Source of the DNA: Arthrobacter wenxiniae
GTDB lineage: Bacteria > Actinomycetota > Actinomycetes > Actinomycetales > Micrococcaceae
Direction: 5' to 3'
Assembly (NCBI RefSeq): GCF_013376105.1
Contig: NZ_JAAMFM010000027.1
Span: 1 to 63,916 of the forward strand
DNA length: 63,916 nt
A model generated the notes under the pieces. That model saw nothing but the letters and a program-made list of their open reading frames with translations, did not search any database and had not been told where the DNA came from. A program made the position numbers and the translations under genes. Positions 48 through 45,802 of this stretch are shown here, one piece after another (the first letter of the stretch is position 1; each line of letters begins with the position of its first letter).

Positions 48-54
48 TGCGGTG

Positions 55-2584: not shown

Positions 2585-2639
2585 CTGTTTACCCTAACGC
2601 ACTGCGTTGTCGGGCGGCAGTGGCCGGTACCCTTGAACC

Positions 2640-16840: not shown

Positions 16841-17754
16841 GGGGCACTCTCCTCGATTGAAACTACTTGCCCGGCCTGCCGGGTGCCATGCGTTACGCCA
16901 ACGGCGCGCGCCACGGGTCGCCCTGCCACGGTCAGGTCAAAGGGCCTGCCGGTGGGATGCCGCAGCGGCAAAACGTCGCCCACGGCCAGGTTGAGTATGG
17001 CGCCGGGCAGGACAGGGACCGGGGCGAGGGCCATTTCGACGTCGACGGGGGTTCCTGCCAGATGGCAGCGCAGCTGCCTGGGGGCGTCGGCCGGGCTGCT
17101 CATGGGATTGCTGGTGCCCAGCTGGTCAAGCAGCGGGTCGGCGGGGAGCGCGATGGAGGTGTCCCAGGTGGTGTCCCCGACGGTGACAATGAGCGTGGCG
17201 ACGATCATCAGCGTGTCGGTTGCCGCAGCCTGGGCGAATTGTGAGTTGAAGAGGATGTCGTGGACCGTGGGCGGGGCGGACAGGAGCGACCCGAAGGAAT
17301 AGTCCAGGTCTTCAAGCGCATCCTGCATGAACTGTTCCACCAGCGAGTGCTCAATGTGCGTGAACTTGCGGTTCGGCACGGGGGCGGACAGGCTGCCGCC
17401 CACCATGCGCGTGATCCAGTGGAAGACCGCCTCCGTGGGATATTGAATGACCCCCTTTGCGTCCTGGCCCTTGATGGCGCAGATGACCACCGCGGTCGTG
17501 GTCGGCAGGGACGCGGCGTACTCGTCATACGTGACCATGCTGATGTTTTCGGCCACCACCGTCGTCGCGGCGCGGATCGTGGAGGTCAGCAGCGTCCCCC
17601 ACTGCCTGGCGTACGTTTCAAAGGCAAGCTCGAGGACGCGGCTGTGTTCCCTGGCGAGGGTGGTGGGCCGCCCAAAGTCGTACACTTCCACGGCACGCGC
17701 CAGCCCGTTGCCGGGCAGGGCTGGATTGAGTGAAAGTACAGGCACATCAGCCAC
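16837..17754 (-). CDS. fliM: flagellar motor switch protein FliM
   Basis: This 305-aa C-ring protein links FliG and FliN. Middle-domain features are visible (YDFGRPTTLAREHSRVLELAFETYARQW at ~25-52; HWITRMVGGS, the family's GG-x motif), as is a C-terminal SpoA domain (VDVEMALAPVPVLPGAILNLAVGDVLPL). The N-terminal CheY-binding LSQ.EID.L motif of other FliM proteins is not seen; the start is short (VPVLSLNPALPGN). The GTG start lies inside a candidate sigma-28 -10 element, so a transcript from that promoter would begin inside the first codons. GTG at codon 4 could then serve as a leaderless start. Confidence 0.92.
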   Translation of the reverse strand: MADVPVLSLNPALPGNGLARAVEVYDFGRPTTLAREHSRVLELAFETYARQWGTLLTSTIRAATTVVAENISMVTYDEYAASLPTTTAVVICAIKGQDAKGVIQYPTEAVFHWITRMVGGSLSAPVPNRKFTHIEHSLVEQFMQDALEDLDYSFGSLLSAPPTVHDILFNSQFAQAAATDTLMIVATLIVTVGDTTWDTSIALPADPLLDQLGTSNPMSSPADAPRQLRCHLAGTPVDVEMALAPVPVLPGAILNLAVGDVLPLRHPTGRPFDLTVAGRPVARAVGVTHGTRQAGQVVSIEESAP

Positions 17755-17782
17755 TATCGGCAGCGCCCGGGATGCCGTTAGG
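17754..17782 (-). promoter_or_regulatory. candidate sigma-28 promoter for the fliM operon
   Basis: Reading on the minus strand: CCTAAC (17777-17782), a 15-bp spacer, and GCCGATAG (17754-17761). This matches the flagellar sigma-28 -10 octamer GCCGATAA at 7 of 8. The -35 overlaps the motB stop codon, and the last base of the -10 is the first base of the fliM GTG. Confidence 0.65.
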
Positions 17783-18590
17783 GCTGATTCACCTTTACCT
17801 TCAGCGCCTTCGGGATCAGGGCCCGCACGTCCTCCGTCTGCTTGGAAAGGACTACGATGTCCACCCTCCGGTTCAGCTCGCGCAGGGCTTCGGTGGAGTC
17901 GTCGTTGACCTGGCGCGAGGCGCCGTATCCGACGGCGCCGATGGTGGATCCCGGGATGTGGCTGTGCTCCACGAGGTAACGCAGCACCCCGACGGCGCGT
18001 TCGGAGGACAGCTCCCAGACGGAGGGATAGCCGGTGATGGCGTTGGCCGCGTGACCCTCCACGGAAATTTCCAGCCTGGCCTTTTCCAACACCGGTGCTA
18101 TCGCCGTCAGGACCCGGTCGGCGCGCACGGACAGGGCCGGGCTGTCGGGCAGGAAGAAGGTCTGGGAGCCGACCAGCTTGACGGTCAGCCCGCGCTCGTC
18201 GACGGAAAATTCGACGTTGGCGGCCAGCCCGGCCCGGGCCAGGCGGGCGTGCATCTCATCGCGGAGGGCGGTCAGCTTGGCCACCTCGGCGAGTGCCTTC
18301 GCCATCTTGTCGTTGGTGAACGAACCTTCCTTGCCAACATCCTTCGGCGCCACAATCACCCCGGCGGCCGTGTCGATCTTGCCGACATTGACCTGCCCGA
18401 ATCCGGTGGCCAGGGAGTCCTTCAGCTGGCTGAACTTTGCGTTGTCAACCGACGACATGGCGTAGAGGACGATGAACAGGCACATCAACACCGTCACCAT
18501 GTCCATGTAGGAGGCCATCCACCGTTCGTCCGCGTGGTGTTCGGGGGAGCCCCGGCGGCGGGACCCGCGGCCGCCCCGTCGCGGTGTCAC
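17778..18590 (-). CDS. motB: flagellar stator protein MotB
   Basis: This 270-aa protein couples ion flow to torque and anchors the stator to peptidoglycan. A basic N-terminus is followed by one membrane helix carrying the ion-binding Asp (YMDMVTVLMCLFIVLYA, D30). The OmpA-like peptidoglycan-binding domain occupies ~residues 150-260 (VEGHAANAITGYPSVWELSSERA ... LRELNRRVDIVV). The GTG start overlaps the motA stop. The stop codon TAA forms part of a candidate promoter for fliM. fliL, often found next, is absent. Confidence 0.94.
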   Translation of the reverse strand: MTPRRGGRGSRRRGSPEHHADERWMASYMDMVTVLMCLFIVLYAMSSVDNAKFSQLKDSLATGFGQVNVGKIDTAAGVIVAPKDVGKEGSFTNDKMAKALAEVAKLTALRDEMHARLARAGLAANVEFSVDERGLTVKLVGSQTFFLPDSPALSVRADRVLTAIAPVLEKARLEISVEGHAANAITGYPSVWELSSERAVGVLRYLVEHSHIPGSTIGAVGYGASRQVNDDSTEALRELNRRVDIVVLSKQTEDVRALIPKALKVKVNQP

Positions 18591-19396
18591 GCCGCCGACT
18601 TCAGGTGGTCGTCGCTCCCGGGCCTGGCCTCCGACTTGGCGCTCCCGCGGCGGTGTTCCGGGACCAGGGCCGTGAGCCGCTCACGCAGCAGTATGGGCTG
18701 CGACCCTGCCTGGACGGCGAGGACGCCTTCCATCAGCAGCGTCATCCGGTCCGCCTCAAGCTCCGAGAGCCGGGCAAGCCGGGCGGCGATGGGCAGCCAC
18801 ATGAAGTTGGCGGACAGCAGGCCCCAGAGCGTGGCGACGAAGGCGCTGGCAATCATTGGACCCAGCGTGCTGGGGGTGGAGAGGTTTTCCAGCACGTGGG
18901 TGAGCGAGACCACCGTGCCGACAATGCCGATTGTGGGGGCGTAGCCGCCCAGCTGCTGGAAGAAACGGTAGGCGACGCCGTCCGTCTTCATCTTCGTGTC
19001 GATGGCGTCGTCAAGCATGTCCCGCAGCTCGTCGCCGTCCGTGCCGTCGGCAATGTTTTGCAGCGCGTCGCGCAGGAAGGCGTCCTCCGTTTTGGCCGCG
19101 TCTTCCTCCAGGGAGAGCAGGCCCTGGCGGCGGGCCTTCTCGGCCAGGGCAACCACCGTGTCGATGCTCTCGATGGGCGGGGCCGGCTTGGCGGTGAAGG
19201 CCTTGGGCAGGGACTTGAAGGCGTGCAGGAAGTCCTTGGTGGTGGAACCGGCCAGGCCCACGGAAATGGTGCCGACGAAGACCAGCATCATCGGCGGCAC
19301 CAAGATGATGCTGCCGACCGTTGAACCTTCCATGGTGAGCATGGCGACGAGGGCGCCGAAGGCGACCAGGATGCCTATGAGCGTTGCCGGATCCAT
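18587..19396 (-). CDS. motA: flagellar stator protein MotA
   Basis: This 269-aa stator subunit has four membrane helices. The first pair is near the N-terminus (TLIGILVAFGALVAMLTM; IILVPPMMLVFVGTISVGL) and the second pair at ~160-215 (YAPTIGIVGTVVSLTHVLENL, with the conserved Pro, and MIASAFVATLWGLLSANFMWLPIAARL). The cytoplasmic loop between them carries charged residues that meet FliG. It lies 3 bp after flbD. Confidence 0.95.
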   Translation of the reverse strand: MDPATLIGILVAFGALVAMLTMEGSTVGSIILVPPMMLVFVGTISVGLAGSTTKDFLHAFKSLPKAFTAKPAPPIESIDTVVALAEKARRQGLLSLEEDAAKTEDAFLRDALQNIADGTDGDELRDMLDDAIDTKMKTDGVAYRFFQQLGGYAPTIGIVGTVVSLTHVLENLSTPSTLGPMIASAFVATLWGLLSANFMWLPIAARLARLSELEADRMTLLMEGVLAVQAGSQPILLRERLTALVPEHRRGSAKSEARPGSDDHLKSAA

Positions 19397-19399
19397 GGC

Positions 19400-19681
19400 C
19401 TACTGCCCGCCCGTGATGGTTCCGTCGCCCGGGTCCGACGGGTGGATGACGCTCAGGTGCGACGTCCTCCTGGCCGGTGCCGGAGCCTCGTTGTAGGCGG
19501 TGGCGATGACCTGGGCGCGAAAGGCCGCGATCTTTTCAATGATCACCGCCATGGGCTCGGTGACAATGAACCGTGCGCCGTCGGCCATGATGAGGATCGT
19601 GTCGGGGGATTCGAAGATACGGGCGATCAGGTCCGGATTCACCGCGAAGTGCCGGCCGTCAAGGCGGGTCACAGTTATCAT
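19400..19681 (-). CDS. flbD: FlbD family flagellar protein
   Basis: This 93-aa protein has the FlbD domain MITVTRLDGRHFAVNPDLIA followed by RIFESPDTILIMADGARFIVTEPMAVIIEKI (residues 1-50). FlbD-family genes sit in Gram-positive flagellar operons between the hook gene and motA, as here; they may act in stator or export function (not settled). It has AAGGA 8 bases before the ATG and is first in flbD-motA-motB. Note that this is not the Caulobacter FlbD response regulator. Confidence 0.88.
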   Translation of the reverse strand: MITVTRLDGRHFAVNPDLIARIFESPDTILIMADGARFIVTEPMAVIIEKIAAFRAQVIATAYNEAPAPARRTSHLSVIHPSDPGDGTITGGQ

Positions 19682-19731
19682 GGGTTTATCCTTTTCACGG
19701 CTTTCATGGTGTCAACCACGTACACCGCCCA

Positions 19732-19760
19732 CTGTCGGCCGTCCCGCCCCGTGCGTTAGG
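19732..19760 (-). promoter_or_regulatory. candidate sigma-28 promoter for flbD-motA-motB
   Basis: On the minus strand: CCTAAC (19755-19760), a 15-bp spacer, and GCCGACAG (19732-19739), one mismatch from the GCCGATAG of its sister sites. It is interleaved with the hairpin behind flgE, so termination and re-initiation occupy the same ~40 bp. Confidence 0.6.
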
Positions 19761-19773
19761 AGCGGGACGGCCG
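19736..19773 (-). terminator. hairpin terminator after flgE
   Basis: A perfect 12-bp inverted repeat: CGGCCGTCCCGC (19736-19747) pairs with GCGGGACGGCCG (19762-19773) across a 14-base loop, 6 bp after the flgE stop codon. There is no U-tract. It would reduce read-through from the hook operon into flbD-motAB. Confidence 0.7.
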
Positions 19774-19779
19774 CTGTGG

Positions 19780-20940
19780 CTACCGCTTGAGCTGGGTCAG
19801 CTCCTGCAGGACCTCGTCCGAGGTGGTGATGATGCGTGCGTTCGCCTGGAAACCGCGCTGGGCCACGATCAGGTTCGTGAATTCCTGGGACAGGTCCACA
19901 TTGGACATTTCGATGTAGCCGCTGGTGAGTTCGCCGAATCCGCCCTGCCCGGCCGCGCCAATGGTTGCGGCGCCGGATGAGGCGGTGGCCCGGTAGCTGG
20001 AGGAACCGATTTTTTCCAGGCCGCCGGGGTTGCTGAAGTTCGCCAGGGCCACCTGGCCAATCACCATGTTCTCGCCATTGGTGAACGTGCCCGTCAGGGT
20101 GCCGTCGGTGCCCATGCTGAAGGAATCCAGCGTGCCGGCGGCGTTGCCGTCGTGGCTCGTCACGGCCACGGTGCTGGCGCCGGCGTTGCCTGTCAGGGCG
20201 GCCAGGTCCACGGTGATTGCGCCGCTGGTCAGCGTGGTGCCGGCCGGGAGGGCTCCGTTGGTGAACGTCAGGGGCTTGGCCGCGCCGCCGTCCGCACTTG
20301 CCTCCCACCCGGTTGCCGTCATCGTGAACGTCAACGCAAGGTTGCCCTTGGCGCCCCTGGCGTCAAATGACTGGACGTCGCGGACCACCGTGGCACCCAC
20401 CGCCGCGTCGCTGGGCAGGTTGCCGCCCAGGACCACCGATTGGGTGGCGGCCGGGGGTGCCACGATGTCCTTGGCGATGCGGATGTCGCCGAGCGCGCCG
20501 CTGGAGTTGACCTTCCCGCCCACGGCGGACCAGCCCTGCAGCAGCGCGCCGTCGGGGGAGACCAGCCGTCCCCGGGAATCAAAGTCGAAGGCGCCGGCAC
20601 GGGCGAAGGACTGCTGGCCGCCCTTGCTGGTGATGAAGAAGCCGTCCCCGGAGATCATCATGTCCGTGGCACGGCCCGTTGCCTGGGCCGAGCCCTGGGA
20701 GAAGTTCGTGGAAATGGCGGCGACCTGGACGCCCAGTCCCACCTGGGCGGCGTTGGTGCCGCCGGTTGCGGCCTGCGCGGCCGAGCCGGACCGTGCCACC
20801 TGGGACAGCGTGTCCTGGAACTGCACGCTGGAACCCTTGTACCCGGCCGTGTTGACGTTGGCGATGTTGTTGCCGGTGACGTCGAGCATGGTCTGGTGTG
20901 CGCGGAGGCCGGAAATGCCTGAATACAATGAACGAAGCAT
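19780..20940 (-). CDS. flgE: flagellar hook protein FlgE
   Basis: This 386-aa protein is the structural subunit of the hook. The N-terminal rod/hook signature is MLRSLYSGISGLRAHQTMLD then VTGNNIANVNTAGYKGSSVQFQDTL. The C-terminal D0 helix ends GYIEMSNVDLSQEFTNLIVAQRGFQANARIITTSDEVLQELTQLKR. Middle domains are short compared with enteric FlgE (~400). It is the last gene before a hairpin, after flgD. It is the only flgE/flgF/flgG-type gene here, so whether it also serves as distal rod is open. Confidence 0.94.
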   Translation of the reverse strand: MLRSLYSGISGLRAHQTMLDVTGNNIANVNTAGYKGSSVQFQDTLSQVARSGSAAQAATGGTNAAQVGLGVQVAAISTNFSQGSAQATGRATDMMISGDGFFITSKGGQQSFARAGAFDFDSRGRLVSPDGALLQGWSAVGGKVNSSGALGDIRIAKDIVAPPAATQSVVLGGNLPSDAAVGATVVRDVQSFDARGAKGNLALTFTMTATGWEASADGGAAKPLTFTNGALPAGTTLTSGAITVDLAALTGNAGASTVAVTSHDGNAAGTLDSFSMGTDGTLTGTFTNGENMVIGQVALANFSNPGGLEKIGSSSYRATASSGAATIGAAGQGGFGELTSGYIEMSNVDLSQEFTNLIVAQRGFQANARIITTSDEVLQELTQLKR

Positions 20941-20976
20941 GGGTGGAGCCTTTCTGTGCCGGATGGGTGCTGCGGG

Positions 20977-21453
20977 TTACGGAGCTGTGCTGCCTGAAGG
21001 TGTGGCGGCCGTGGAAGTGACGCTGGAAATGGAGTCCAGCGGCACGCTGAGGTCCCCGACCTTGACCGCGGGGACGCCCAGGGCGAAGGACACGGAATCG
21101 GCCACGCCGCTGTGTGCCGTCCCGTTCGCGTCCGTCCACGCAATGTCGCGCCCGATCATGGCCGCGGCCGCGGTGCGCATCTGCAGCGAAAAGTTCTCCG
21201 TTGCCGTCTTGTCCATGCTGGTCAGTTTCTCCATGGTGGCCAACTGGGTGGTCTGGGAGATCATCTGGTTCGTGTCCATGGGCGACGACGGATCCTGGTT
21301 GCGCAGCTGGGTCACCAGCAGGTTCATGAAGACCTCGGAGTCCATGGCCTGCTTTGGCGTGCGTGCCGCGGCAGTGCTGTAGACACCGTTGGCCGCCGGT
21401 GGCGGCAGGCTGCTGGCGACACCGGTGGGCGGGGTGATGGCTTCAGTAGTGAT
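20977..21453 (-). CDS. flgD: hook-capping protein FlgD, apparent ATC start codon
   Basis: FlgD caps the growing hook. The hallmark MDSEVFMNLLVTQLRNQDPSSPMD is at residues ~31-55, followed by MIGRDIAWTDANG and the C-terminal domain. No ATG, GTG or TTG occurs in frame between the hallmark region and a point well inside fliK. AGGAG at 21460-21464 is followed after 6 bases by ATC (21451-21453), giving (M)TTEAITPPTGVASS and 158 aa. Initiation at ATC is the best reading. Alternatives are a late ATG at MDSEVF, which would remove the export signal, or a base error. fliK ends 14 bp upstream. Confidence 0.85.
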   Translation of the reverse strand: MTTEAITPPTGVASSLPPPAANGVYSTAAARTPKQAMDSEVFMNLLVTQLRNQDPSSPMDTNQMISQTTQLATMEKLTSMDKTATENFSLQMRTAAAAMIGRDIAWTDANGTAHSGVADSVSFALGVPAVKVGDLSVPLDSISSVTSTAATPSGSTAP

Positions 21454-21467
21454 GGTGGGCTCCTGTT

Positions 21468-23033
21468 CTAAACCGTGATGTCGAGCGATGTCGGGTGCAA
21501 GGGGGCCGGGCCTGTCTCGTGGCGGGGCGCGGCCGGTGGTTCCGGGCCTGCCGCGGCGTCCAACGGCCCCTGACCCGCCTGCCCCGTGGCCGGGCCGTTT
21601 TGGCCGGCGTCCTGGCCGGCGTGCTGTCCGGCGTTCTGTCCGGGGTTCTGTCCAAAGGCGTGCGCCTGCCCCCCGCTCCCGCCGTTCAGGGACGACGACA
21701 GGGTCACGGACGACTGCAGGCCCTGTCCCGCCAGGTCCCGGCGCAGCTCGGTCAGGATCAGGCGCAGCCCGTCCCGTCCCGCGTCTGTCGCGGCCGCCAG
21801 TTCGATCCGGACACCGTCGGCGGACAGGTGGGCGCTGACGGTGACCGGCCCGAGCGACGCCGGCACCACCTGCACCGTCATGACCCGCTGCCCGGCCTGC
21901 CCCGTGGCCAGCTGGAAGATGGGGCGCGCGAGCTGCTCCGCCAGCGGCGGCGCAGCCTGGTGTGCGGGCGCGGCGGGCGCCGCCTGCGTGGCTACGGCCG
22001 CCGGCGGGACCGCCGGCAGGTTGACGCCGGACACAGCCGGGAGCCCGCCTTGCTGACGGCCGTCCTGCTGGCGGCCGTCCGCCGTCTTGTCCCCGCCGTC
22101 CTGACGTACGACGCCGGCCGCGGGCGCCAGGCCGGCCGCCCCCGTCGTCGTTGCGGCGGCTGTGGCTGCGGCGGCTGTGGCGGCTGCCGGGCCGCCGGAG
22201 GCTGCCGCGGACAGGGCGGCCGCCGCGGGTGCGGCCGCGGAGGGCTGGCCGGCACCCGTCCCGGCTGGGGCGCCGGGCGCCGTGCTCCCGGCTGCCGGGA
22301 CGGCGGGACCCGGATGCCGTGGCGCGGGCTTTCCGTCGCCGGACGGGGCCGCCGCCCCGGTTGCGGCCCTCCCGGCCGTGCCAAGGTCCGCCGCGGTGGC
22401 GGCGCCGGGCGTCACGGCACCCGCGGCGGCATGGCCGGTCCCGGGCACTGCGGGAGCCGGCACCCCGGGAGCCGGCGCGGCAGAATCCGGCGCGGCCGCG
22501 GACCCGGCGGACGGTGCGGACCCGGTGGACGGTGCGGACCCGGCTGCGGAAGCAACGGTACCGGCAGCACCAGTACCGGCAGCAGAGGCCCCGGCAGCCA
22601 CAGTCCCGGCGCCCGGGGCTTTCTGGACGGCTGCGGGCGCGGAACCGGCGGCGGCGGAAATGGACGTGCCGGAACCGGCGGCGCCGGGAACGGACGTGCC
22701 GGGAACGGGCAGCCCGCCCGGCCAGGCCAGGGCCGCTGCGGCCGTCGGCACACCGGCCATGGCGCCGGCGTCGGCGTCGGACGTATCGGGCTCCGCCCCC
22801 GGGCGGCCGCCGCCCTTCGGTGTGCCGGAATCCTGTGCGGCGGCGCCGGGCGCGCTGCCGCCGCGCGGCTTGCCGTCGCCGCCGCGCGGCTCCCCGGCGG
22901 CCGCCCCCACGGCGTCGTCCAGGTGCTCGGAAAAGCTGGGGCCCGGCTGCTTCGCCACCGCGTCGCCCGCACCGCGGCCGGGCGCCCTGGCCGGGGCGGC
23001 CGGCAACGGCCCCCCGCCCGCCACGGCGGTCAC
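21468..23033 (-). CDS. fliK: flagellar hook-length control protein FliK
   Basis: FliK measures hook length and triggers the FlhB switch. The protein is 521 aa. Residues ~40-350 are extremely Ala/Gly/Pro-rich low-complexity spacer, as expected for a ruler. The folded C-terminal Flg_hook domain spans ~365-455 (PIFQLATGQAGQRVMTVQVVPASLGPVTVSAHLSADGVRIELAA with the LGP-V/L-.-.-.L-.-.G-.-.V pattern). It is followed by a degenerate tetrapeptide array around GQNPGQNAGQHAGQDAGQNG. The GTG start overlaps fliJ (GTGA). Confidence 0.88.
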   Translation of the reverse strand: MTAVAGGGPLPAAPARAPGRGAGDAVAKQPGPSFSEHLDDAVGAAAGEPRGGDGKPRGGSAPGAAAQDSGTPKGGGRPGAEPDTSDADAGAMAGVPTAAAALAWPGGLPVPGTSVPGAAGSGTSISAAAGSAPAAVQKAPGAGTVAAGASAAGTGAAGTVASAAGSAPSTGSAPSAGSAAAPDSAAPAPGVPAPAVPGTGHAAAGAVTPGAATAADLGTAGRAATGAAAPSGDGKPAPRHPGPAVPAAGSTAPGAPAGTGAGQPSAAAPAAAALSAAASGGPAAATAAAATAAATTTGAAGLAPAAGVVRQDGGDKTADGRQQDGRQQGGLPAVSGVNLPAVPPAAVATQAAPAAPAHQAAPPLAEQLARPIFQLATGQAGQRVMTVQVVPASLGPVTVSAHLSADGVRIELAAATDAGRDGLRLILTELRRDLAGQGLQSSVTLSSSLNGGSGGQAHAFGQNPGQNAGQHAGQDAGQNGPATGQAGQGPLDAAAGPEPPAAPRHETGPAPLHPTSLDITV

Positions 23034-23449
23034 TCGCCGGCCTCTCGGCGGGACAGGGCCAGTTCATCGAGGAAGCCCTGTTCGGCGTGCAGCTCGGCGG
23101 TGGCGTACTCGTCCTGGTGCCGCTCGGCCAGCTTTTCCAGCGGGCTGGCAGCTGTTTTCGCCTCGAGCAGCGCGGCCTGGGCCGAGTCGGCGTCCGACTC
23201 CAGTGTCGCGGCGAGGGCCTGCAGGTCCAGCAGCAGGCTGCGCGAGGCGGCCCGCGACGCAGCCGCTGCGGCAAGGGCGGAAGCCGAGGCGGGGTCGGAG
23301 CCGGAGTCGGCCAGGGCGCCGCGGGTTGCTGCCAGCCGGCGGCCGTGGGCCGTCCGCCGGGCGTTTGCCTGCCCCAACGCCGCCGCGGCCTGGTCTTCCT
23401 GCAGCTTACGCAGGCGGAGAAGTCCTGCGAGCCGGAATGCCTTGGTCAT
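23030..23449 (-). CDS. fliJ: flagellar export protein FliJ
   Basis: FliJ is the 139-aa central stalk of the FliI ATPase ring, which also links to FlhA. It is almost wholly alpha-helical coiled coil, starting MTKAFRLAGLLRLRKLQEDQAAAALGQA, with heptad-rich Ala/Leu/Glu to the end (FLDELALSRREAGE). It starts at the ATGA overlapping the fliI stop; the longer ORF upstream is not used. Confidence 0.88.
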   Translation of the reverse strand: MTKAFRLAGLLRLRKLQEDQAAAALGQANARRTAHGRRLAATRGALADSGSDPASASALAAAAASRAASRSLLLDLQALAATLESDADSAQAALLEAKTAASPLEKLAERHQDEYATAELHAEQGFLDELALSRREAGE

Positions 23450-26454: not shown

Positions 26455-28043
26455 ACGCCGGCCTTCTCGTCCATGAAGGAGCGCAGCAGCGCCGCGGTGC
26501 CTTCCGGGTCCTTGGCGGCCAGCGCGTTAAGCGATTTCCGCTTGGTGGAGGACTCGCTTGGTTCGCTGATGGGCAGCAGCACCGGTTCCGGGATGGCCGG
26601 CAGGGCGCTGGTTTGCGGCGACACGGTGACCAGCGGATCCAGCTGTCCCAGCTCGTCCTTGCGCTCACCCAGGTCCACCAGCCGGCGCACCTGCCGGCGG
26701 TTTTTCCGGGCATACAGCACCAGGGCCAGCAGCAGCAGGAGCAGCGCGCCCGCGGCGATCAGCAGGTTCTGCACCGTCTTGGCCGTGGCGGCGGAATTCG
26801 CCTCAGCCGTGGCCGCGTCGAGCGCGGCCTTGGCGGCGTCGGCCTGCGCGGTGGAGAAAGGCACCACCTTGAGGCTGACGACGTCCCCGCGGGTCCTGTC
26901 AATGCCGGCGGCGGCCGCCACCATGTCCGTCAGCGTGGCCGCATCCACCTTTTTCGCCGCGTTGGTGTCCACGGCAACGGCCAGGGACTGCCTTTGCAGG
27001 GTCCCGGCCGGGATGCTGGTGTTTGCCGTGGTCTTGTCCACGGCGTTGTTTTTCGTGGTGGTGGTCGATTCGTTCGTGCCGGCCGACGACTGGCCGGAGG
27101 GGACGGCGATGTTGTCCGGGCCCAGCACGCCGGCGCCGGTGCCGGCGCCCCCGTTGGACTTGTTGGTGCTGGAGGACTCGTTGAGGGCGGGTGCGCCGGT
27201 GGGCGAGGCGAATGATTCCTTCACCACCTCGGAGGAGGACTTGTCCATGGCAGCCGTCAGCGAGACTGTGGAGTTGCCCGGCCCGAGCACGCGGTCCAGC
27301 ATCGCCTGGACGGCCGACGTCGTCCGCCTTTCGTATTCCGTGGCCTGCTTGTCCGCCCCGCCGCCCAGGGCGGTCCCCGCCGCGGAGAGGACATTGCCCT
27401 TGGCGTCCACCACGGAGACGTTGGCCGGCGTCAGGCCCTCCACGGAGGAGGAGACGAGGTGCACCACGGCGTCCACCTGGTCGGGGGAAAGCTGGCCCGA
27501 GCCGGAAGACTCGACAAACACGGAGGCGGTGGGGTCTGCCTTCGTGGAGCTGAAGACGGTGCTTTCCGGGATGGCCAGCTTGACCGACGCCATCTGCACG
27601 CCGTTCATGGCCATGACGGTCTTGGCCAGCTCCCCCTCCATGGCGCGCTTGTACGTGACATTTTGCTGGAATTCCGAGGACGTCACGCCCATCGTGTCCA
27701 GCAGCGAGTACCCGGCGGTGGTGGCGGCCGGGAGCCCTGCCCCGGCCGCCTTGAGCCGTTCGTCATAGACCTTGGCGTCGGGGACCAGGATGGTGGTGCC
27801 GCCGTTGGTCAGCTGATACGGCACATTGTCCGTCTTAAGCTGCGCGACGATTGCGCTGGCGTCGGCCGCGGCCACGCCGGAGAACAGGGGCGAGTAGGTG
27901 GGCTTGGTCAGCCAGGTGCCCAGGGCCACGGCGCCGAGCACCAGGACTGCGATGCCGATGACCGCCAGGGTGCGCTGGGCCGTGGTGAAGCCCTTCAGCG
28001 TCCCGGAGGCGCGGGCCATGGCTTGCGAAAGGACCGGTGGCAT
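26451..28043 (-). CDS. fliF: flagellar MS-ring protein FliF
   Basis: This 530-aa membrane ring protein is the base on which the rotor assembles. The first membrane helix is at ~residues 27-46 (LAVIGIAVLVLGAVALGTWL). The ring-building motifs are at ~50-220 (YSPLFSGVAAADASAIVAQL, VTYKRAMEGELAKTVMAMNGVQMASVKLAIPE). The second helix is at ~427-445 (LLIAAGALLLLLLALVLYARK). A cytoplasmic tail that binds FliG closes the protein (LRSFMDEKAGV). The start overlaps the fliE stop by one base. Confidence 0.95.
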   Translation of the reverse strand: MPPVLSQAMARASGTLKGFTTAQRTLAVIGIAVLVLGAVALGTWLTKPTYSPLFSGVAAADASAIVAQLKTDNVPYQLTNGGTTILVPDAKVYDERLKAAGAGLPAATTAGYSLLDTMGVTSSEFQQNVTYKRAMEGELAKTVMAMNGVQMASVKLAIPESTVFSSTKADPTASVFVESSGSGQLSPDQVDAVVHLVSSSVEGLTPANVSVVDAKGNVLSAAGTALGGGADKQATEYERRTTSAVQAMLDRVLGPGNSTVSLTAAMDKSSSEVVKESFASPTGAPALNESSSTNKSNGGAGTGAGVLGPDNIAVPSGQSSAGTNESTTTTKNNAVDKTTANTSIPAGTLQRQSLAVAVDTNAAKKVDAATLTDMVAAAAGIDRTRGDVVSLKVVPFSTAQADAAKAALDAATAEANSAATAKTVQNLLIAAGALLLLLLALVLYARKNRRQVRRLVDLGERKDELGQLDPLVTVSPQTSALPAIPEPVLLPISEPSESSTKRKSLNALAAKDPEGTAALLRSFMDEKAGV

Positions 28044-28351
28044 CAGGCCTGCATCCGCATGATCTCGTTGAACGCGTCGACGCCCTTGTTGCGCACGGCG
28101 GCAACAAGTTCCAGCGTCACCTGCGCGCGGGCGGCGGCGATGGTGGCGTTGTGGATGTCATCCAGGTTGCCGGTGACGGCCTGGACGGCCAGCGTCTTGG
28201 CATCGCTGGAGAGTGCCTGGACATTGTCCAGCGCCCCCGCCAGGGCGGCGCCGAAGCCGGTGCCGCCGGTGGCCGCAGGGACCTGGCCGGCGTTGTGCAC
28301 ATAGCCGGTGGCTGCCGTTGCCTGCACGCCGATGATGGGTGTGGGGCTCAT
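28043..28351 (-). CDS. fliE: flagellar hook-basal body protein FliE
   Basis: FliE is the 102-aa junction protein between the MS ring and the proximal rod. The C-terminal half carries the family pattern (DDIHNATIAAARAQVTLELVAAVRNKGVDAFNEIMRMQA), matching the usual V-.-KA-.-LTLQ-.-.-.-VRNK-.-.AY-EIM-MQ. It lies between flgC (3-bp gap) and fliF (1-bp overlap). Confidence 0.94.
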   Translation of the reverse strand: MSPTPIIGVQATAATGYVHNAGQVPAATGGTGFGAALAGALDNVQALSSDAKTLAVQAVTGNLDDIHNATIAAARAQVTLELVAAVRNKGVDAFNEIMRMQA

Positions 28352-28354
28352 GGG

Positions 28355-28741
28355 TTATTTTCCAATCTGCAGTCCGGCTTCATACATGACCTTGGCGCGG
28401 TCCACGACGGCCGCATTGGCCTGGTAGCCGCGCTGGGCCATGATGAGCTGGCCCATCTGCGAGGCCAGGTCAATGTCCGGGTAGCGCACATAGCCCTTGG
28501 CGTCGGCCAGGGGGTGGTCGGGTTGATAGACCATCCGGCCCTGGGCATTGCCGAACGCGGCGCCGGCCACGTAGACGCCGGAGTTCCCCTGGCCCGCCTC
28601 GGCCAGCACATAGCGGGCACGGAAGGCGTCGCCGCTGGTGGCCGTCACTGTGTTGACGTTGGCAAGGTTGTCCGAGACGGCGTCGAGCCACTTGCGGTGC
28701 AATGTCAGGCCTGTTGCGGCGATCCCAATTGCGTCGGTCAT
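28355..28741 (-). CDS. flgC: flagellar proximal rod protein FlgC
   Basis: FlgC is a 128-aa rod protein. The N-terminal signature is IGIAATGLTLHRKWLDAVSDNLANVNTV. The C-terminal signature is YPDIDLASQMGQLIMAQRGYQANAAVVDRAKVMYEAGLQIGK. The length is typical (130-150). ATG overlaps the flgB stop (TAATG). Confidence 0.95.
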   Translation of the reverse strand: MTDAIGIAATGLTLHRKWLDAVSDNLANVNTVTATSGDAFRARYVLAEAGQGNSGVYVAGAAFGNAQGRMVYQPDHPLADAKGYVRYPDIDLASQMGQLIMAQRGYQANAAVVDRAKVMYEAGLQIGK

Positions 28742-29082
28742 TACTGTGTCCTCAATGCCGTGCGCATGGAGGTGAACTCGCCGTTGACGGCCTGGGCCGC
28801 GAATTGGTAGCGGAGCGTCGTCTCGACGTTGGAGAGCGTCTCGGTGTCAAGGTTGACGTTGTTGCCGTTGGTCTGCGTCGGCTCCAGGGACAGCGCCGTG
28901 GTGGCCGTGACATGGCCGTCGCCCGCCTTCACGGAGGCGGCCAGGGCGTCCTCAAACATGACGCGCTTGGCCCGGTATCCGGGCGTGTTGACGTTGGCAA
29001 TGTTGTCGGCGATCGCGTTTTGGCGGTCGGAGAGGGAATTGAGGGCGCTCGTCAGCGCAACGGTGACCACGGAATCCAGCAC
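28741..29082 (-). CDS. flgB: flagellar proximal rod protein FlgB
   Basis: This 113-aa rod protein has the N-terminal signature LTSALNSLSDRQNAIADNIANVNTPGYRAKRVMFEDAL and a C-terminal helix (LRYQFAAQAVNGEFTSMRTALRT). GTG at 29082 is chosen because GGAGG lies 8 bases upstream; the frame opens further upstream without a site. It is the first gene of the long flgB-to-flgE operon, behind a candidate sigma-28 promoter. Confidence 0.93.
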   Translation of the reverse strand: MLDSVVTVALTSALNSLSDRQNAIADNIANVNTPGYRAKRVMFEDALAASVKAGDGHVTATTALSLEPTQTNGNNVNLDTETLSNVETTLRYQFAAQAVNGEFTSMRTALRTQ

Positions 29083-29149
29083 AGCGTACTTCCTCCACGA
29101 AACGGGCCGGTCCATGGCCTGGTGACGAGCAGTCCGTGCTCGAGTGCAA

Positions 29150-29178
29150 CTATCGGCAGCCCTTTCGCGCATGTAAGG
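29150..29178 (-). promoter_or_regulatory. candidate sigma-28 promoter for the flgB operon
   Basis: Minus strand: CCTTAC (29173-29178), 15-bp spacer, GCCGATAG (29150-29157), about 68 bp before the flgB start. The -10 is identical to that before fliM; the -35 differs by one base from CCTAAC. Confidence 0.6.
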
Positions 29179-29214
29179 TGTTTCGTGCAGCGCATTTTTC
29201 GTGCGCGCGGCAGG

Positions 29215-29508
29215 TTACCCGGTCACATCGACGTACACGGAACGGGGCTGCGCCCGCACTGGCTGCGCGCGAGCCAGAAGCTCTGCAGTCTCCCTCACGG
29301 CCGCGCCCAGGAGCTGGGCCGCCTCGGCCTGTGCCGCCGCCAACCGCCGGGCACGGGCAGCCAGCTCCACTGGCAAGGGGCCCGGATCGGCGGAGGGCAC
29401 CCACGAGGCAGTGTCGTGCTGGAGCCCGGCGGGCTCGGCACGGGCCAGTACGCAAGCCAGTGCCACATCGGCTTCCAACCTTTCCAGCAGCACGGGCCAG
29501 ATGCTCAT
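29215..29508 (-). CDS. hypothetical flagellar protein in the fliT position
   Basis: This 97-aa, mostly helical, Ala/Leu/Arg-rich protein has no membrane segment. Its ATG overlaps the fliS stop (ATGA), so it is surely translated with fliD-fliS. FliT, the FliD chaperone, occupies this place in many operons and is likewise short, helical and poorly conserved. Sequence similarity could not be shown by eye (MSIWPVLLERLEADVALACV... ends PRSVYVDVTG). The FliT-like role is inference from position. Confidence 0.6.
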   Translation of the reverse strand: MSIWPVLLERLEADVALACVLARAEPAGLQHDTASWVPSADPGPLPVELAARARRLAAAQAEAAQLLGAAVRETAELLARAQPVRAQPRSVYVDVTG

Positions 29509-29930
29509 GCCAGGGCCGCCTGGTTTGACAGCTGCGGGGCAGGAAGGATTGTGGAGGGTGCCGCCGCAGCCTCATGCCATGTCTGGCGCAGTGGTTCCAG
29601 CAGCTCAATGCATTCGCGGGTCAGCTTCACGTTGCGGTGGATATTGGCGTACATCAGTGCCGTCCCGGCGTAGTTGTAGATGCCCAGCAGGTTCCCGGCG
29701 CCGTCCCACATTCCGGTATTTAGGGAACCGGCCAGTTCGGCGATGATGTCCTGGGCGTGGACCAGCATGACATGCGCAGTCTGCCAGTCCTGCGACTCCT
29801 GGGCGTCCTGTGCCCGGGAGAGGTCCAGCAGCAGCCGGTCATAGAGCATGGTGAGCAGGCGTGCAGGGGAGGCGGAGAGAATCGCCTCGCGCTGGTAGCT
29901 GTTCAGGGCCCGGGCTTGGTGGAGCGTCAC
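29505..29930 (-). CDS. fliS: flagellin export chaperone FliS
   Basis: This 141-aa helical chaperone keeps flagellin unfolded in the cytoplasm. Family features are present: a Tyr-rich N-terminus (LNSYQREAILSASPARLLTMLYDRLLLDLSRA, corresponding to the usual Y-.-.-.-.-.-TASP-.-LI-MLYDG-.-.-.L) and the later YNYAGTALMYANIHRNVKLTRECIELLEPLRQTW. GTG start overlapping the fliD stop. Confidence 0.94.
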   Translation of the reverse strand: MTLHQARALNSYQREAILSASPARLLTMLYDRLLLDLSRAQDAQESQDWQTAHVMLVHAQDIIAELAGSLNTGMWDGAGNLLGIYNYAGTALMYANIHRNVKLTRECIELLEPLRQTWHEAAAAPSTILPAPQLSNQAALA

Positions 29931-31312
29931 TTGGAACTCTTTCCGTTGGCGGACAGTGCGTCAAGCTGTGAGTTCAGCCAGCTTTGTTGAGACTGCAGCT
30001 TTCCCAGCTGCACCTCCATGCTGTTGTACTGCGCCTGCAGCGTGGACCTTTTCGCTGCCAGGCGGCCATCCCAGTCGGAGATCTGGCTGTTGAGGCTGTC
30101 AATGGTTTTTTGTCCGCCCTGGATCCGCTGGGTCAGCGTCCCGTTGACGGGATCGGAGACGGACGCCGCGGCCGCCGCAACCCTGCCCGTGATGGTCTGC
30201 AGCGCCGTGGTCACGCCGCCGGGGTCCTTGGCGTAGGCGGCTGCGAACGCGGCCGGATCGAACGTGATGTCCCCGTCCTTGGTGGTGTTGATGCCGATGC
30301 CCGACGGCGATTGGCCGGCCACCGGGTCTGACACGGCCCCGTACAGCCTGTCCCGGGCCATGGTGACGCTGCTTTGGCCCGTGAACACGCCCCCTGTGAC
30401 CGTGGAGGAGCCGTTGGCCCCGACCGTGGTGGAAACGGCTGTCCCGGACTTGATGGACCCCAGCAGGGAACTGATGCCGGCAACCAGGCTCCCGGCGGCG
30501 GCGGAGACCTTGTCCGTGTCACTGGCGACGCTCACAGTGGCGGGGGTGTCGGTGCGGGCGTTGACCGTGATGTCCAGGCCCGGGGCAATGCCGGTAAAGG
30601 TGTTGCTGGCGGAGGTGATGGTCGTGGCGGCGGCAGTGCCGGCCCAGAGCGTTACCTGGGCATCCTGGCCCTGGCTGAGCACAGCGGATGTGGCGGCGTC
30701 GGTGAGCTTGGGGGCCGTGCCGCCGTCCACCTCGGCTGCATTGCCAAAATAGGCTGTGAAGGCGGCGGCTGCGCCCGTCTGGCGGGAGGTCAGCTGAAGC
30801 CGGTAGGTGGTGTTGCCGTCGGTGTCCTTGCCGGCGGCGACCGTCACGGCTGAGATCCCGGCGTCGGAGTTGTTGATGGCCAGGGCCATGTCGTCCAGGG
30901 AGGCGGATCCGGCCGTGACCTCGGTCTTTGTGCCGTCGGCCTTGACAAAGGTCATGGAGGTGCCGGGCGCAGCCGCCATGGCTGCGCTGACCACCGAGTG
31001 GGACTGGGCCAGCTGTGTGACGCTCAGGTCCAGGCTGGTGACGGAGGCACCGGAGGACGCGGAGGCTGTGATGGCGGGGGAACTGGATGCGGCCTTGACG
31101 AGGGCCAGCCCGCCGGGCTTGGTGAGGTCGGCAGCCTTCGCGGCCAGGGAGGCGAAGCCGGCGTTCACCGTTTGCATGGCCGCCATGAGCGCGGTTTGGG
31201 TGCCCGCCTGGCTCTTTAGCTGGGTTTGCGGGCCGGCCGCCACTTGGATGAGGGAGTTGATGATGGACGCCGTGTCCAGGCCGGACACCAGCCCGTTGAT
31301 GCCGAGGGTCAT
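29927..31312 (-). CDS. fliD: flagellar filament cap protein FliD
   Basis: This 461-aa HAP2 cap protein helps flagellin fold at the filament tip. The N-terminus GINGLVSGLDTASIINSLIQVAAGPQTQLKSQ is diagnostic. The C-terminal coiled coil (LTQRIQGGQKTIDSLNSQISDWDGRLAAKRSTLQAQYNSMEVQLGKLQSQQSWLNSQL) is classic FliD. AGGAG lies 7 bases upstream. It starts 115 bp after fliC, beyond two hairpins; no motif-matching promoter was found in that gap. Confidence 0.96.
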   Translation of the reverse strand: MTLGINGLVSGLDTASIINSLIQVAAGPQTQLKSQAGTQTALMAAMQTVNAGFASLAAKAADLTKPGGLALVKAASSSPAITASASSGASVTSLDLSVTQLAQSHSVVSAAMAAAPGTSMTFVKADGTKTEVTAGSASLDDMALAINNSDAGISAVTVAAGKDTDGNTTYRLQLTSRQTGAAAAFTAYFGNAAEVDGGTAPKLTDAATSAVLSQGQDAQVTLWAGTAAATTITSASNTFTGIAPGLDITVNARTDTPATVSVASDTDKVSAAAGSLVAGISSLLGSIKSGTAVSTTVGANGSSTVTGGVFTGQSSVTMARDRLYGAVSDPVAGQSPSGIGINTTKDGDITFDPAAFAAAYAKDPGGVTTALQTITGRVAAAAASVSDPVNGTLTQRIQGGQKTIDSLNSQISDWDGRLAAKRSTLQAQYNSMEVQLGKLQSQQSWLNSQLDALSANGKSSK

Positions 31313-31349
31313 GGCGTGGCTCCTGAGGTCGGTGGATTCTTGCGGACCG

Positions 31350-31383
31350 GCGGGCGGACAGGCGCACTGGCCTGCCCGCCCGC
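31350..31383 (-). terminator. hairpin 2 downstream of fliC
   Basis: A 14-bp stem with one mismatch: GCGGGCGGACAGGC (31350-31363) pairs with GCCTGCCCGCCCGC (31370-31383) around a 6-base loop, in the fliC-fliD gap. Confidence 0.7.
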
Positions 31384-31390
31384 CGCCGGG

Positions 31391-31417
31391 TCACGGCCCG
31401 GATATGCCGGGCCGTGA
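31391..31417 (-). terminator. hairpin 1 downstream of fliC
   Basis: A perfect 11-bp stem: TCACGGCCCGG (31391-31401) pairs with CCGGGCCGTGA (31407-31417) with a 5-base loop, 10 bp after the fliC stop. It probably defines the 3' end and stability of the abundant flagellin mRNA. Confidence 0.75.
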
Positions 31418-31427
31418 GAGTGTCGGC

Positions 31428-32618
31428 CTAGCCAAGCAGCTTCAGCACGGACTGCGAGCTCTGGTTGGCCTGGGCCAGCATGGCAGTTCCTGCCTGGGAA
31501 AGGATGTTGTCCTTGGTGAACTTCGCCATTTCGGAGGCCATGTCAACGTCTGTGATGCTCGACGCGGCGGCGGAAAGGTTTTCCTGGCCGACGTTGAGGG
31601 TGTCTATGGCCGAGTTGAGGCGGTTCTGCACGGCACCGATGTTGGAGCGTGCTGCCGAGACTGCCGCGATCTTCGTGTCGAGCAGGTCGATCGCCTTCTG
31701 CGCCCCCACGGAAGTGCTGAAGTCCAGCCCGACAACGCCACTGCCGACAGCAGTGCCTGTGGAGTCGACGAAGCCACCCTTGGCGTCCGCGCCGGCTGCG
31801 TCCGTAGCCTTCACGGTGCCGCCGTCCTTGGCAGTCACGACGACACCGATCCCCGCGCCATTGCCGTCCTTGACGACCGTGGCCGAGAAGCTCGCAGAGA
31901 AGTCCGCGTTCTTGTTCAGGTCCGCCGCGAAGGCATCGACGTTGGTGTAGGTGTTGGCGGAGAGGTCGACCGTGGCGGTCTTGGAGCCTCCGGCCGTCGA
32001 AGAGGTGAAGGAGTAGCTGGCGTTCAGGCCTGACGGTGCTCCGGTGCCGGTGTCGAACGCCGCCACGTTGAACTGCGTGCCGGTAGAGGATGCCTTCAGG
32101 CCTGAAGCCATCGAGGAGAGGTCGACGCCGGAGAGGTCCATGCTGATCTGGTTGGACTGCCCGGACCCGGCACCCACCTGGAATTTCAGGTTCGCCGAGC
32201 CGTCCAGCAAATTGATGCCGTTGAAGTTCGTGGACTTGCCAAGGCGGTCCAGTTCGTCGGACAACTGGCCGGCCTCGGTGGAAATGGCCGTGCGGGCCGC
32301 AGTGTTGTTCGAGTCGTTACCGGCTTGCACGGCGAGGTCACGCATGCGCTGGAGGATGTTCTGGGCCCCGTTCAGACCGCCTTCAGCTGTCTGGATGACG
32401 TTGATGCCGTCCTGGGCGTTGCGCGCTGCCACCTGGTAGCCGTTGACCTGGGACTTCAACCCCTGGGAGATGGACAGGCCGGCCGCGTCGTCGGCGGCGC
32501 GGTTGATGCGCAGGCCGCTGGAGAGCTTCTCCATGGATGAAGACAGGGCCTTCTGGGTGTTGTTGAGGTTGCGGTAGGCGTTGTTGGCCGCGGTGTTTGT
32601 ATTGACGATCATGCCCAT
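31428..32618 (-). CDS. fliC: flagellin
   Basis: This 396-aa filament subunit is exported through the type III apparatus. N-terminal D0/D1: MGMIVNTNTAANNAYRNLNN then SSSMEKLSSGLRINRAADDAAGLSISQGLKSQVNGYQVAARNAQDGINVIQTAEGGL. C-terminal D1/D0: AAASSITDVDMASEMAKFTKDNILSQAGTAMLAQANQSSQSVLKLLG. The variable central domain is ~residues 170-310. GGAGG lies 9 bases before ATG 32618; that Shine-Dalgarno and an upstream hairpin form candidate CsrA sites. It is transcribed on its own from a candidate sigma-28 promoter. Confidence 0.97.
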   Translation of the reverse strand: MGMIVNTNTAANNAYRNLNNTQKALSSSMEKLSSGLRINRAADDAAGLSISQGLKSQVNGYQVAARNAQDGINVIQTAEGGLNGAQNILQRMRDLAVQAGNDSNNTAARTAISTEAGQLSDELDRLGKSTNFNGINLLDGSANLKFQVGAGSGQSNQISMDLSGVDLSSMASGLKASSTGTQFNVAAFDTGTGAPSGLNASYSFTSSTAGGSKTATVDLSANTYTNVDAFAADLNKNADFSASFSATVVKDGNGAGIGVVVTAKDGGTVKATDAAGADAKGGFVDSTGTAVGSGVVGLDFSTSVGAQKAIDLLDTKIAAVSAARSNIGAVQNRLNSAIDTLNVGQENLSAAASSITDVDMASEMAKFTKDNILSQAGTAMLAQANQSSQSVLKLLG

Positions 32619-32627
32619 GATGTGAAT

Positions 32628-32670
32628 CCTCCGTGAGTGTGGGTACGTAACTGGCCGCCCATCCGTGGGC
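32628..32670 (-). promoter_or_regulatory. candidate CsrA-binding leader of fliC (two GGA sites)
   Basis: The leader RNA can form GCCCA-CGGA-TGGGC, a 5-bp stem whose tetraloop presents GGA (rc of 32657-32670). A second GGA lies in the Shine-Dalgarno CACGGAGGATT (GGAGG at 32628-32632). CACGGATG closely fits the known CsrA consensus ACARGGAUG. The spacing, one upstream hairpin plus one site over the SD, mirrors the Bacillus subtilis hag leader. Confidence 0.55.
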
Positions 32671-32682
32671 AACTGCCAGCAA

Positions 32683-32711
32683 CTCTCGGCAACTCTTTCC
32701 GGGCCGTTAGG
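32683..32711 (-). promoter_or_regulatory. candidate sigma-28 promoter of fliC
   Basis: Minus strand: CCTAAC (32706-32711), 15-bp spacer, GCCGAGAG (32683-32690). This would start transcription about 58 nt before the fliC ATG, just ahead of the CsrA-like hairpin. Confidence 0.7.
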
Positions 32712-32756
32712 AGCTTGGGTCCGCCAATTCCGCGAACCCTGCCTCTCCGGCTGTGC

Positions 32757-33605
32757 TCAGCCCAGCGCCGGCATGGTCCGGGCCACGCCATCCCGGGCCA
32801 GGCCATCCCGGGCCGTGTGGCCCAGCACCCTCGTGGCGCCGCCCAGTGTGCGTGCGCCCAGCTCGGTGAGGTATTCCTCGCGGCGGGAGGCGGCCACGCG
32901 GGCGTGCGGCGCGGACCCCGCATCCGCCGTGGCCAGGTAGTGGCGCTCAATGCCGTCCCGCAGCAGCCGCATCGCCTCGGTGCGCTGCTGGGACACGGCG
33001 GAGTGGCTGGAGCCGAGCTCCTCGGACAGGTCCTTGACGCTGCGGTCGCCGTAGTAGATCTGCTCCACGATGTAGCGCATCTTTTCCGGCAGCGCCGCAA
33101 CTGCCGCGCCCAGGAAGTCCTCGTGCTCGGACTGCAGCACGGCCTCCTCCGGCGTTTGTGACGTTGCCGCGACCATTTCCGCGATCACGTCGCTCAACGG
33201 CGTGACGCTGCGGGCGGCGTCGAGCTGGGACGCCTCGACGGTGGCGCGGTCCACGCCCATGGCAGCGGCCAATTCGGCGGCGGAGGGCAGGCGGCCCAGG
33301 GCAGCGGACAGCGTTTCCTGCATGACGGCAAGCTCGCTCATGCGTGACCTGGCACCCCGGGTGGCCCAGTCCTCGCGCCGCAGCTCATCGGCGAAGGCAC
33401 CCTTGATGCGGCGCCGGGCGTAGGCCCCGAAAGGCACGCCAAGGCTCGCGTCAAAGGACTCCGCGCACTGGATGAGCGCAATGGCGCCGACCTGCGTAAG
33501 GTCCGGCCTGGACAGGTGACTGGCGCGCATGCAAATTTCAGAAACCAAATACCCAACCAGTGGCAAATTTTGCACCACAAGTTGGTCGCGTTCTTCGCGA
33601 TTCAA
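32757..33605 (-). CDS. fliA: flagellar sigma factor FliA (sigma-28)
   Basis: This 282-aa sigma-70-family factor should direct RNA polymerase to late flagellar promoters. Region 2 is visible (RPDLTQVGAIALIQCAESFDASLGVPFGAYARRRIKGAFADELR with the FGAYA-.-RRI-GA--D-LR signature). Region 3 is MSELAVMQETLSAALGRLPSAAELAAAMGV. Region 4 with its HTH is LPEKMRYIVEQIYYGDRSVKDLSEELGSSHSAVSQQRTEAMRLLR. The start is taken as TTG at 33605 because a GGGGGAAA site lies just ahead; an upstream GTG (33668) is possible. No anti-sigma flgM is in the window. The last ~15 codons contain a duplicated CCATCCCGGGCC element. Confidence 0.9.
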   Translation of the reverse strand: MNREERDQLVVQNLPLVGYLVSEICMRASHLSRPDLTQVGAIALIQCAESFDASLGVPFGAYARRRIKGAFADELRREDWATRGARSRMSELAVMQETLSAALGRLPSAAELAAAMGVDRATVEASQLDAARSVTPLSDVIAEMVAATSQTPEEAVLQSEHEDFLGAAVAALPEKMRYIVEQIYYGDRSVKDLSEELGSSHSAVSQQRTEAMRLLRDGIERHYLATADAGSAPHARVAASRREEYLTELGARTLGGATRVLGHTARDGLARDGVARTMPALG

Positions 33606-33890
33606 AGTATTTCCCCCTCGGCAACTTATGACAGAACGTCGCAACCGACACCCCCCCAGGTGTGCCACATGCGAATATCACAAGTGACACTTCAATGTAA
33701 ACCACATTGGCAAGGGGTTGCAGTCCCCGGGTAGGCTAATTTCATATCGATTTGGCAACATTTATGTCTCAGTTCGCCGGAGTTCAGGGGCCTCCCAGCC
33801 AAAACGTGTAGGACTGGGCCTTACGGAACGTACAGGGTGCGCCGATAGGTTAGTGGAGACACCCTTCGGCCCGTTGAAAGGACCTATCAC
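33606..33890. other. divergent control region between fliA and flgN
   Basis: This 285-bp gap is the most AT-rich stretch of the flagellar locus (about 33530-33780) and contains no plausible gene. It must hold the fliA promoter on the minus strand (no sigma-28-like motif was seen there, so a vegetative or activator-dependent promoter is likely) and the flgN promoter on the plus strand, described separately. Confidence 0.6.
33819..33848 (+). promoter_or_regulatory. candidate sigma-28 promoter for flgN-flgK-flgL-fliW
   Basis: CCTTAC (33819-33824), 16-bp spacer, GCCGATAG (33841-33848), 42 bp before the flgN GTG. The spacer is one base longer than in the other four sites. Confidence 0.55.
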
Positions 33891-45760: not shown

Positions 45761-45802
45761 CACCCGAAAGCTAGCACCCGAAAGCTAGCACCCGAAAGCT
45801 AG
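45761..45802. repeat. three perfect 14-bp direct repeats between convergent genes
   Basis: CACCCGAAAGCTAG occurs three times head to tail (45761-45774, 45775-45788, 45789-45802), then degrades to AACCCGAAC. Each unit carries a CTAG. The minus-strand argO stop (45799-45801) lies in the third copy, so the array begins at one stop codon and ends at the other. It looks like a slippage expansion of the argO 3' end. Confidence 0.85.

Follow-up and report, generated by a model that had tools for sequence, protein, structure and literature searches.

Promoters of the sigma-28 (FliA/SigD) class keep 15 bases between their two boxes, regions 2.4/3.0 of the sigma factor are assigned to reading of the -10 box, and in Escherichia coli the rod, hook and export genes are on before FliA acts. 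Here we analyze five putative promoters of this class, together with the FliA sigma factor that very probably reads them, in the flagellar locus of Arthrobacter wenxiniae. The locus lies on a stretch of 63,916 nucleotides (contig NZ_JAAMFM010000027.1, assembly GCF_013376105.1; hereafter the window), which has a G+C content of 69% and comes from a genome of 4.33 Mb in 88 contigs. The class consensus, TAAA at -35 and GCCGATAA at -10, is that of Helmann 1991 as cited in PMC8325347; here and below, statements with a PMC number refer to the portions of those papers that were available.

Related systems have been described in other actinobacteria. In Actinoplanes missouriensis, flagellar genes depend on the FliA-family sigma factors FliA1-3 (PMC8325347, PMC13293333, PMC11064477; Hashiguchi 2020 and Jang 2016 are the A. 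missouriensis FliA studies cited in those papers). WhiG of Rubrobacter and Streptomyces belongs to the flagellar sigma clade and was given TAAA / GCCGATAA as search consensus; its targets are type IV pili and cyclic di-GMP enzymes in Rubrobacter and sporulation genes in Streptomyces, and it is restrained by the anti-sigma factor RsiG (PMC8325347). The motility island of Kineococcus radiotolerans encodes fliA and csrA, with no known master regulator and no FlgM; the absence of FlgM from flagellated actinobacteria was noted in the same paper, which left open how flagella are controlled without FlgM or a master regulator (PMC2587704). Among the open-licence PMC papers that our searches listed, no title or abstract opening describes the -35 variant reported below or Arthrobacter flagellar promoters.

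The five two-part sites had been proposed as a sigma-28 promoter set by a sequence-only reading of the window, and all five read as claimed in position and strand. Judged from sequence comparison, they are very probably promoters read by the FliA of the same locus, with predicted transcription starts and a presumed direct dependence of the five units on FliA. They are the window's only sites within one mismatch of CCTAAC-N13..17-GCCGATAG. The four sites with a 15-base spacer (the fifth has 16) fit CCTWAC-N15-GCCGANAG (W, A or T), for which, at up to one mismatch, the chance mean was 0.05 against 4 found in the window, and 0 of 100 dinucleotide shuffles reached 4 matches. In a genome-wide scan, CTWAC-N15/16-GCCGANAG matches exactly five times in 4.33 Mb, always in the flagellar locus, and its reversed control once; CCTWAC-N15-GCCGANAG with one mismatch gives three additional matches outside the locus. 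The parallel proposal of hits near chemotaxis genes came up empty, as a CheW-domain gene (CheW or CheA) was not detected in this genome, so that chemotaxis genes are unavailable as motif targets here.

Alignment of the sites on their -10 box reveals the register of the -35 box. Fifteen bases upstream of GCCGAT stands TAAC or TTAC preceded by C, where the classic box has TAAA. The -35 is therefore in the TAAA register with one or two bases changed, a variant of the classic box and not the different element implied by the earlier wording "CCTAAC rather than TAAA". The consensus CCTAAC holds insofar as all five sites carry CCTAAC or CCTTAC; its leading C is loose in relatives, being present at 29 of the 45 distinct sites compared in the genus. 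The five bases C-T-W-A-C are almost fixed there, and the A and C that close them occur in 45/45. The conserved -35 core is, by this comparison, CTWAC. Similarly, the -10 octamer said to be shared is common only in its first part: GCCGA begins it in 5/5 sites, the full GCCGATAG occurs in three, and the sixth base varies. None of the five has the classic GCCGATAA, from which the -10 differs by a final A-to-G change (identity 7/8 in three sites, 6/8 in two). At the fliC and flbD sites the sixth base is C or G in 20/20 genus sites, and at fliM, flgB and flgN it is T in 30/30; in other genera, flbD is non-T in 9/12 and fliC is T in 10/10. These sub-types may tune promoter strength or timing. Among 48 genus CTWAC sites, the spacer is 15 bases in 44, 16 in three and 14 in one.

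The arrangement is conserved wherever fliA occurs in the genus. We detected fliA in 10 of 23 genus genomes, and in all ten each of the five units carries a motif of the same type at a similar distance from its gene, in agreement with the proposal that the sites head the units of one FliA-encoding locus. The spacer sequences themselves have diverged, close pairs excepted. The motif stays beside fliM even where additional DNA separates motB from fliM, with the -35 box up to 1422 bases beyond the motB stop, and G013 has a near-gene fliC site. Outside the genus, 17 genomes were taken, two of which (G040, G052) lack flagellar structural genes in the stretch examined; such sites were found in 14 of the 15 flagellar loci read, the exception being G120. 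For a fair count of -35 boxes, only the -10 was fixed, in 106 upstream regions from 24 genomes with G120 excluded. A readable -10 was present in 101 regions (the five without one are all from other genera), and CTWAC lies 14-16 bases away in 99 of them: 51/51 in 14 other genera and 48/50 in the genus, where two genomes have ATTAC in its place at flgN. TAAA at spacer 15 was found in 0/103 regions with a readable -10.

The motif also co-occurs with fliA. The strict form CCTWAC-N15/16-GCCGATAG is present in 9/10 FliA-positive vs 0/13 FliA-negative genus genomes, and in 63/98 vs 1/197 genomes of the family (Fisher p about 2e-37, uncorrected for kinship). The reversed strict pattern occurs in 7/98 and 7/197. 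Because the places of the sites are conserved, the motif co-occurs with fliA and a FliA-like gene lies in the cluster, the core of the earlier interpretation, a FliA promoter set, is strongly supported, and the interpretation as a whole partly so.

The FliA of this locus carries sigma70 regions 2 and 4 (PF04542 and PF04545, above gathering scores), and TIGR02479 (FliA_WhiG) is its best NCBIfam hit by E-value. A comparison with solved structures ranks two entries called only "RNA polymerase sigma factor" highest, followed by several named FliA. Its region 4.2 recognition helix reads SSHSAVSQQ; the rest of its clade has HSA, HAA, SSA or PSA at this place, and other actinomycetes mostly ESRVSQ. 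We surveyed helix and box together in 26 genomes of the class, which provided 30 regions upstream of fliC; three regions have no -10 (G451, G431, G407). The helix was read from the FliA that matched best in each genome, and in some genomes this FliA is not adjacent to fliC. G431, where the PSA-type FliA is not encoded near fliC but a second sigma factor is, was left uncounted. Where the FliA is of the HSA type, CTAAC stands in 3/3 readable regions. Where it is of the ESR type (one reads DSR), CTWAC stands in 0/24 and CTCA in 16/24 (12 CTCAG, 3 CTCAA, 1 CTCAT); the other eight lack CTCA at spacer 15, and an alternative -10 choice in G351 would yield CTAAG. A third pairing is seen in G120, a member of the same family whose divergent FliA (31% identity, helix VSDATVSKE) accompanies four TGAAA-type sites, among them those before fliC and flgN; this pattern was picked after viewing the fliC site and has no shuffled control. 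Thus the -35 box tracks the FliA helix: HSA with CTWAC, ESR mostly with CTCA, and one divergent FliA with TGAAA. In the FliA tree, 29 SA/AA-type proteins lie on one side of a single branch with support 99/98, which argues for one evolutionary event and not many. The G120 protein forms a very long branch within that side, where its placement is unsure.

At the stringency of CTWAC-N15/16-GCCGANAG, the genus regulon appears limited to the flagellum. Matches outside the cluster number seven in the 10 FliA-positive and five in the 13 FliA-negative genus genomes, which is background level (G019 and G020 share one site, counted twice among the seven), and this genome has none. Across the family the picture is wider: fliA is no more than 50 kb away from 68 of the 100 strict hits, and the 32 far ones divide into 31 in FliA-positive genomes and one in G167; a near hit is present in 46 of the 64 genomes with the strict motif. 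We examined 20 of the 32 far sites by taking the likeliest downstream open reading frame (ORF) and searching Pfam. The targets comprise flgN (two), a GGDEF gene, a gene for a VanY-type carboxypeptidase with LGFP, two CAP genes with SLH (two genomes of one genus), two reprolysin-like peptidase genes (weak Pfam matches; same genus and same site), one GmrSD_C gene (G029), one TM2 gene, two long ORFs without Pfam match, and a class-II glutamine amidotransferase domain gene 259 bases away. Seven far sites, G167 included, gave no convincing ORF or no match, and the 12 others may include flagellar clusters on another contig. The far sites in stretches L178, L187, L189 and L191 (each 1-3001), before the VanY, GGDEF and two CAP-SLH genes, are candidate members of the regulon. 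The window also holds a gene with GmrSD_C and Excalibur domains (44271-45275), before which the motif is absent.

Chemotaxis and anti-sigma proteins were sought in this genome and 23 FliA-bearing relatives, which together represent 15 genera. A CheW domain was found in none of the 24, so these flagellar genes apparently occur without classical chemotaxis. FlgM (PF04316) was likewise absent from 24 family genomes, this one among them, while the E. coli and Bacillus subtilis positive controls matched. No FliA-type box precedes fliA itself within two mismatches in the FliA-bearing genus genomes. In the genus, the fliA leader (33602-33818) is free of FliA-type boxes on the fliA strand; it shows a TGGGG stretch and a TACAGT-like hexamer, the latter with loose conservation. 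The hexamer could be a housekeeping -10, and a clear -35 was not found in the flgN-fliA gap.

We considered whether the sites might instead be operators for a dimeric DNA-binding regulator. Indeed, CTAACGGC...GCCGATAG is almost an inverted repeat, and the arms of the fliM copy are complementary at 7/8 positions. However, the arms do not stay symmetrical across sites. Information content at the two positions that follow CTWAC is only 0.99 and 0.40 bits in the 45 distinct sites of the genus; in 50 sites from other genera (preselected by motif, so that their -35 counts are biased) it is 0.50 and 0.11 bits. The first three -10 bases, which would mirror this part of the site, carry 1.6-2.0 bits. 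Spacers of both 15 and 16 occur, placement and orientation to the gene are promoter-like, and the -10 is near the published flagellar box GCCGATAA (PMC8325347). An inverted-repeat operator was rejected on the symmetry statistics, and we hold an operator role to be very improbable. It is harder still to credit a resemblance arising by chance or from an overlapping constraint. The TAA of the fliM -35 (17778-17780) is the motB stop codon, an overlap common to 8/10 genus genomes and G046; yet the chance expectation is 0.05, the remaining four sites lie on no stop codon of a predicted gene, and the fliM site is intact off the motB stop in 2/10 genus genomes and in 9/10 non-genus genomes where it was found. 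The conservation data thus contradict this explanation.

A more serious competitor, which we nonetheless think unlikely, is that these are ordinary FliA promoters in which CTWAC is a tolerated weak -35 and FliA specificity is unchanged. CTWAC is indeed one or two bases from (C)TAAA, the -10 is near standard, and 8/24 ESR-type fliC regions also deviate from their CTCA. Tolerance, however, predicts drift, whereas the closing A and C of CTWAC are fixed in 45/45 distinct genus sites and TAAA was never found at spacer 15; moreover, the ESR-to-HSA helix change coincides with the box change. Several observations weigh against our own reading of a FliA promoter set with a lineage-specific box: the FliA scores 123.3 bits, under the curated NCBI cut-off of 189.6 for FliA_WhiG; the strict pattern is missing from 35/98 FliA-positive family genomes; 32/100 strict family hits are separated from fliA by more than 50 kb or by a contig boundary; counts from relatives are non-independent and enter the Fisher value without kinship correction; the FliA chosen for its helix is sometimes away from fliC; and the SA-type helix is one change on the tree, so that the covariation amounts essentially to one event plus G120.

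Taking the five sites as FliA promoters, we propose that region 4.2 of FliA would read CTWAC at -35 while regions 2.4/3.0 would read GCCGAnAG at -10, across a spacer of 15-16 bases. Since gene order places every structural gene in a unit headed by one of the boxes, a single sigma factor would turn on (I) the rod and basal body, (II) the hook, (III) the switch and export apparatus, (IV) the stator, (V) the hook-associated proteins and (VI) the filament. With no such box in front of it, fliA would be started by something else, and we infer that control sits upstream, at fliA transcription or at some anti-sigma step. In this lineage the -35 box has changed to CTWAC where the classic form is (C)TAAA, and the helix has changed with it from ESR to HSA, the helix change being the presumed cause. 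Our broader model, which we favor only somewhat over its negation, is that one FliA clade within Micrococcales shifted its -35 specificity from (C)TAAA/CTCA to CTWAC via the ESR-to-HSA change, that the genus has a single-tier, five-promoter regulon without FlgM or chemotaxis genes, and that the box spread to a few cell-surface and cyclic di-GMP genes in other genera. The individual promoters are ordinary in kind; what sets them apart is that box and helix have shifted across the lineage, in a one-tier setting in which neither FlgM nor chemotaxis genes were detected. The promoter set is complete, unique in its genome and paired with a probable cognate sigma factor. The CTWAC/HSA, CTCA/ESR and TGAAA/DAT pairs of actinomycetes offer a naturally occurring comparison of how sigma-28 factors recognize the -35 box, and the three might work as separate switches.

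Table 1. Predicted FliA-type promoters and unit-heading or flanking genes of the A. wenxiniae flagellar cluster (window coordinates).
Feature	Position	Strand	Details
FliA-type promoter of fliM unit (predicted)	17754-17782	-	CCTAAC-N15-GCCGATAG; -35 core CTAAC
FliA-type promoter of flbD-motA-motB (predicted)	19732-19760	-	CCTAAC-N15-GCCGACAG; -35 core CTAAC
FliA-type promoter of flgB unit (predicted)	29150-29178	-	CCTTAC-N15-GCCGATAG; -35 core CTTAC
FliA-type promoter of fliC (predicted)	32683-32711	-	CCTAAC-N15-GCCGAGAG; -35 core CTAAC
FliA-type promoter of flgN-flgK-flgL-fliW (predicted)	33819-33848	+	CCTTAC-N16-GCCGATAG; -35 core CTTAC
csrA, far end of fliM unit	9299..9589	-	
fliM, first in switch/export unit	16837..17685	-	
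flbD, first in stator unit	19400..19681	-	
flgB, first in basal-body unit	28741..29082	-	
fliC, flagellin	31428..32618	-	
fliA, sigma factor	32757..33602	-	probable TTG start 33602; ORF extends to GTG 33668
flgN, first in hook-associated unit	33891..34373	+	

The cluster spans 9299-37092 by ORF calls and Pfam and NCBIfam profile searches. Its minus strand reads, in order of position, csrA, orf9 (no Pfam match), flhA, flhB, fliR, fliQ, fliP, fliO, fliN, fliM, motB, motA, flbD, flgE, flgD, fliK, fliJ, fliI, fliH, fliG, fliF, fliE, flgC, flgB, fliS, fliD, fliC and fliA, followed on the plus strand by flgN, flgK, flgL and fliW. From this order, the fliM unit would comprise fliM-fliN-fliO-fliP-fliQ-fliR-flhB-flhA(-orf9-csrA) and the flgB unit flgB-flgC-fliE-fliF-fliG-fliH-fliI-fliJ-fliK-flgD-flgE; the fliC promoter probably serves fliD and fliS too. 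Gene order is identical in nine other genus genomes, with the exceptions of G012 and G013, which have added DNA between motB and fliM and before fliC, respectively (csrA of G012 lies outside the stretch compared). We note that a Stealth-family protein gene with four conserved regions (7852-9321) adjoins csrA, and that a homologue stands at the csrA end of the cluster in 7/9 other genus genomes within the stretches compared. Beyond the cluster, about three tandem copies of CTAGCACCCGAAAG (45757-45798) lie where an ORF with no Pfam match (45353-45760) ends.

In sum, the locus shares with known sigma-28 promoters a nearly identical -10, the same register, similar targets and a FliA-type sigma factor encoded alongside, and differs in a -35 of CTWAC in place of (C)TAAA and a -10 that ends in G in place of A. 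Actinoplanes missouriensis, also an actinomycete, has flagellar genes dependent on FliA-family sigma factors, with three FliA proteins and sporangium control (PMC8325347, PMC13293333, PMC11064477). The WhiG regulons differ in their targets and in restraint by RsiG, although those of Rubrobacter include diguanylate cyclase genes, as does one far GGDEF hit here (G073) (PMC8325347). The flagellar cluster of Kineococcus radiotolerans, another actinobacterium, similarly includes fliA and csrA and comes without FlgM, yet complete chemotaxis pathways are reported for it (PMC2587704). Finally, whereas E. coli FliA serves the genes needed late (PMC4183435), here every structural unit of the flagellum carries a FliA-type box.

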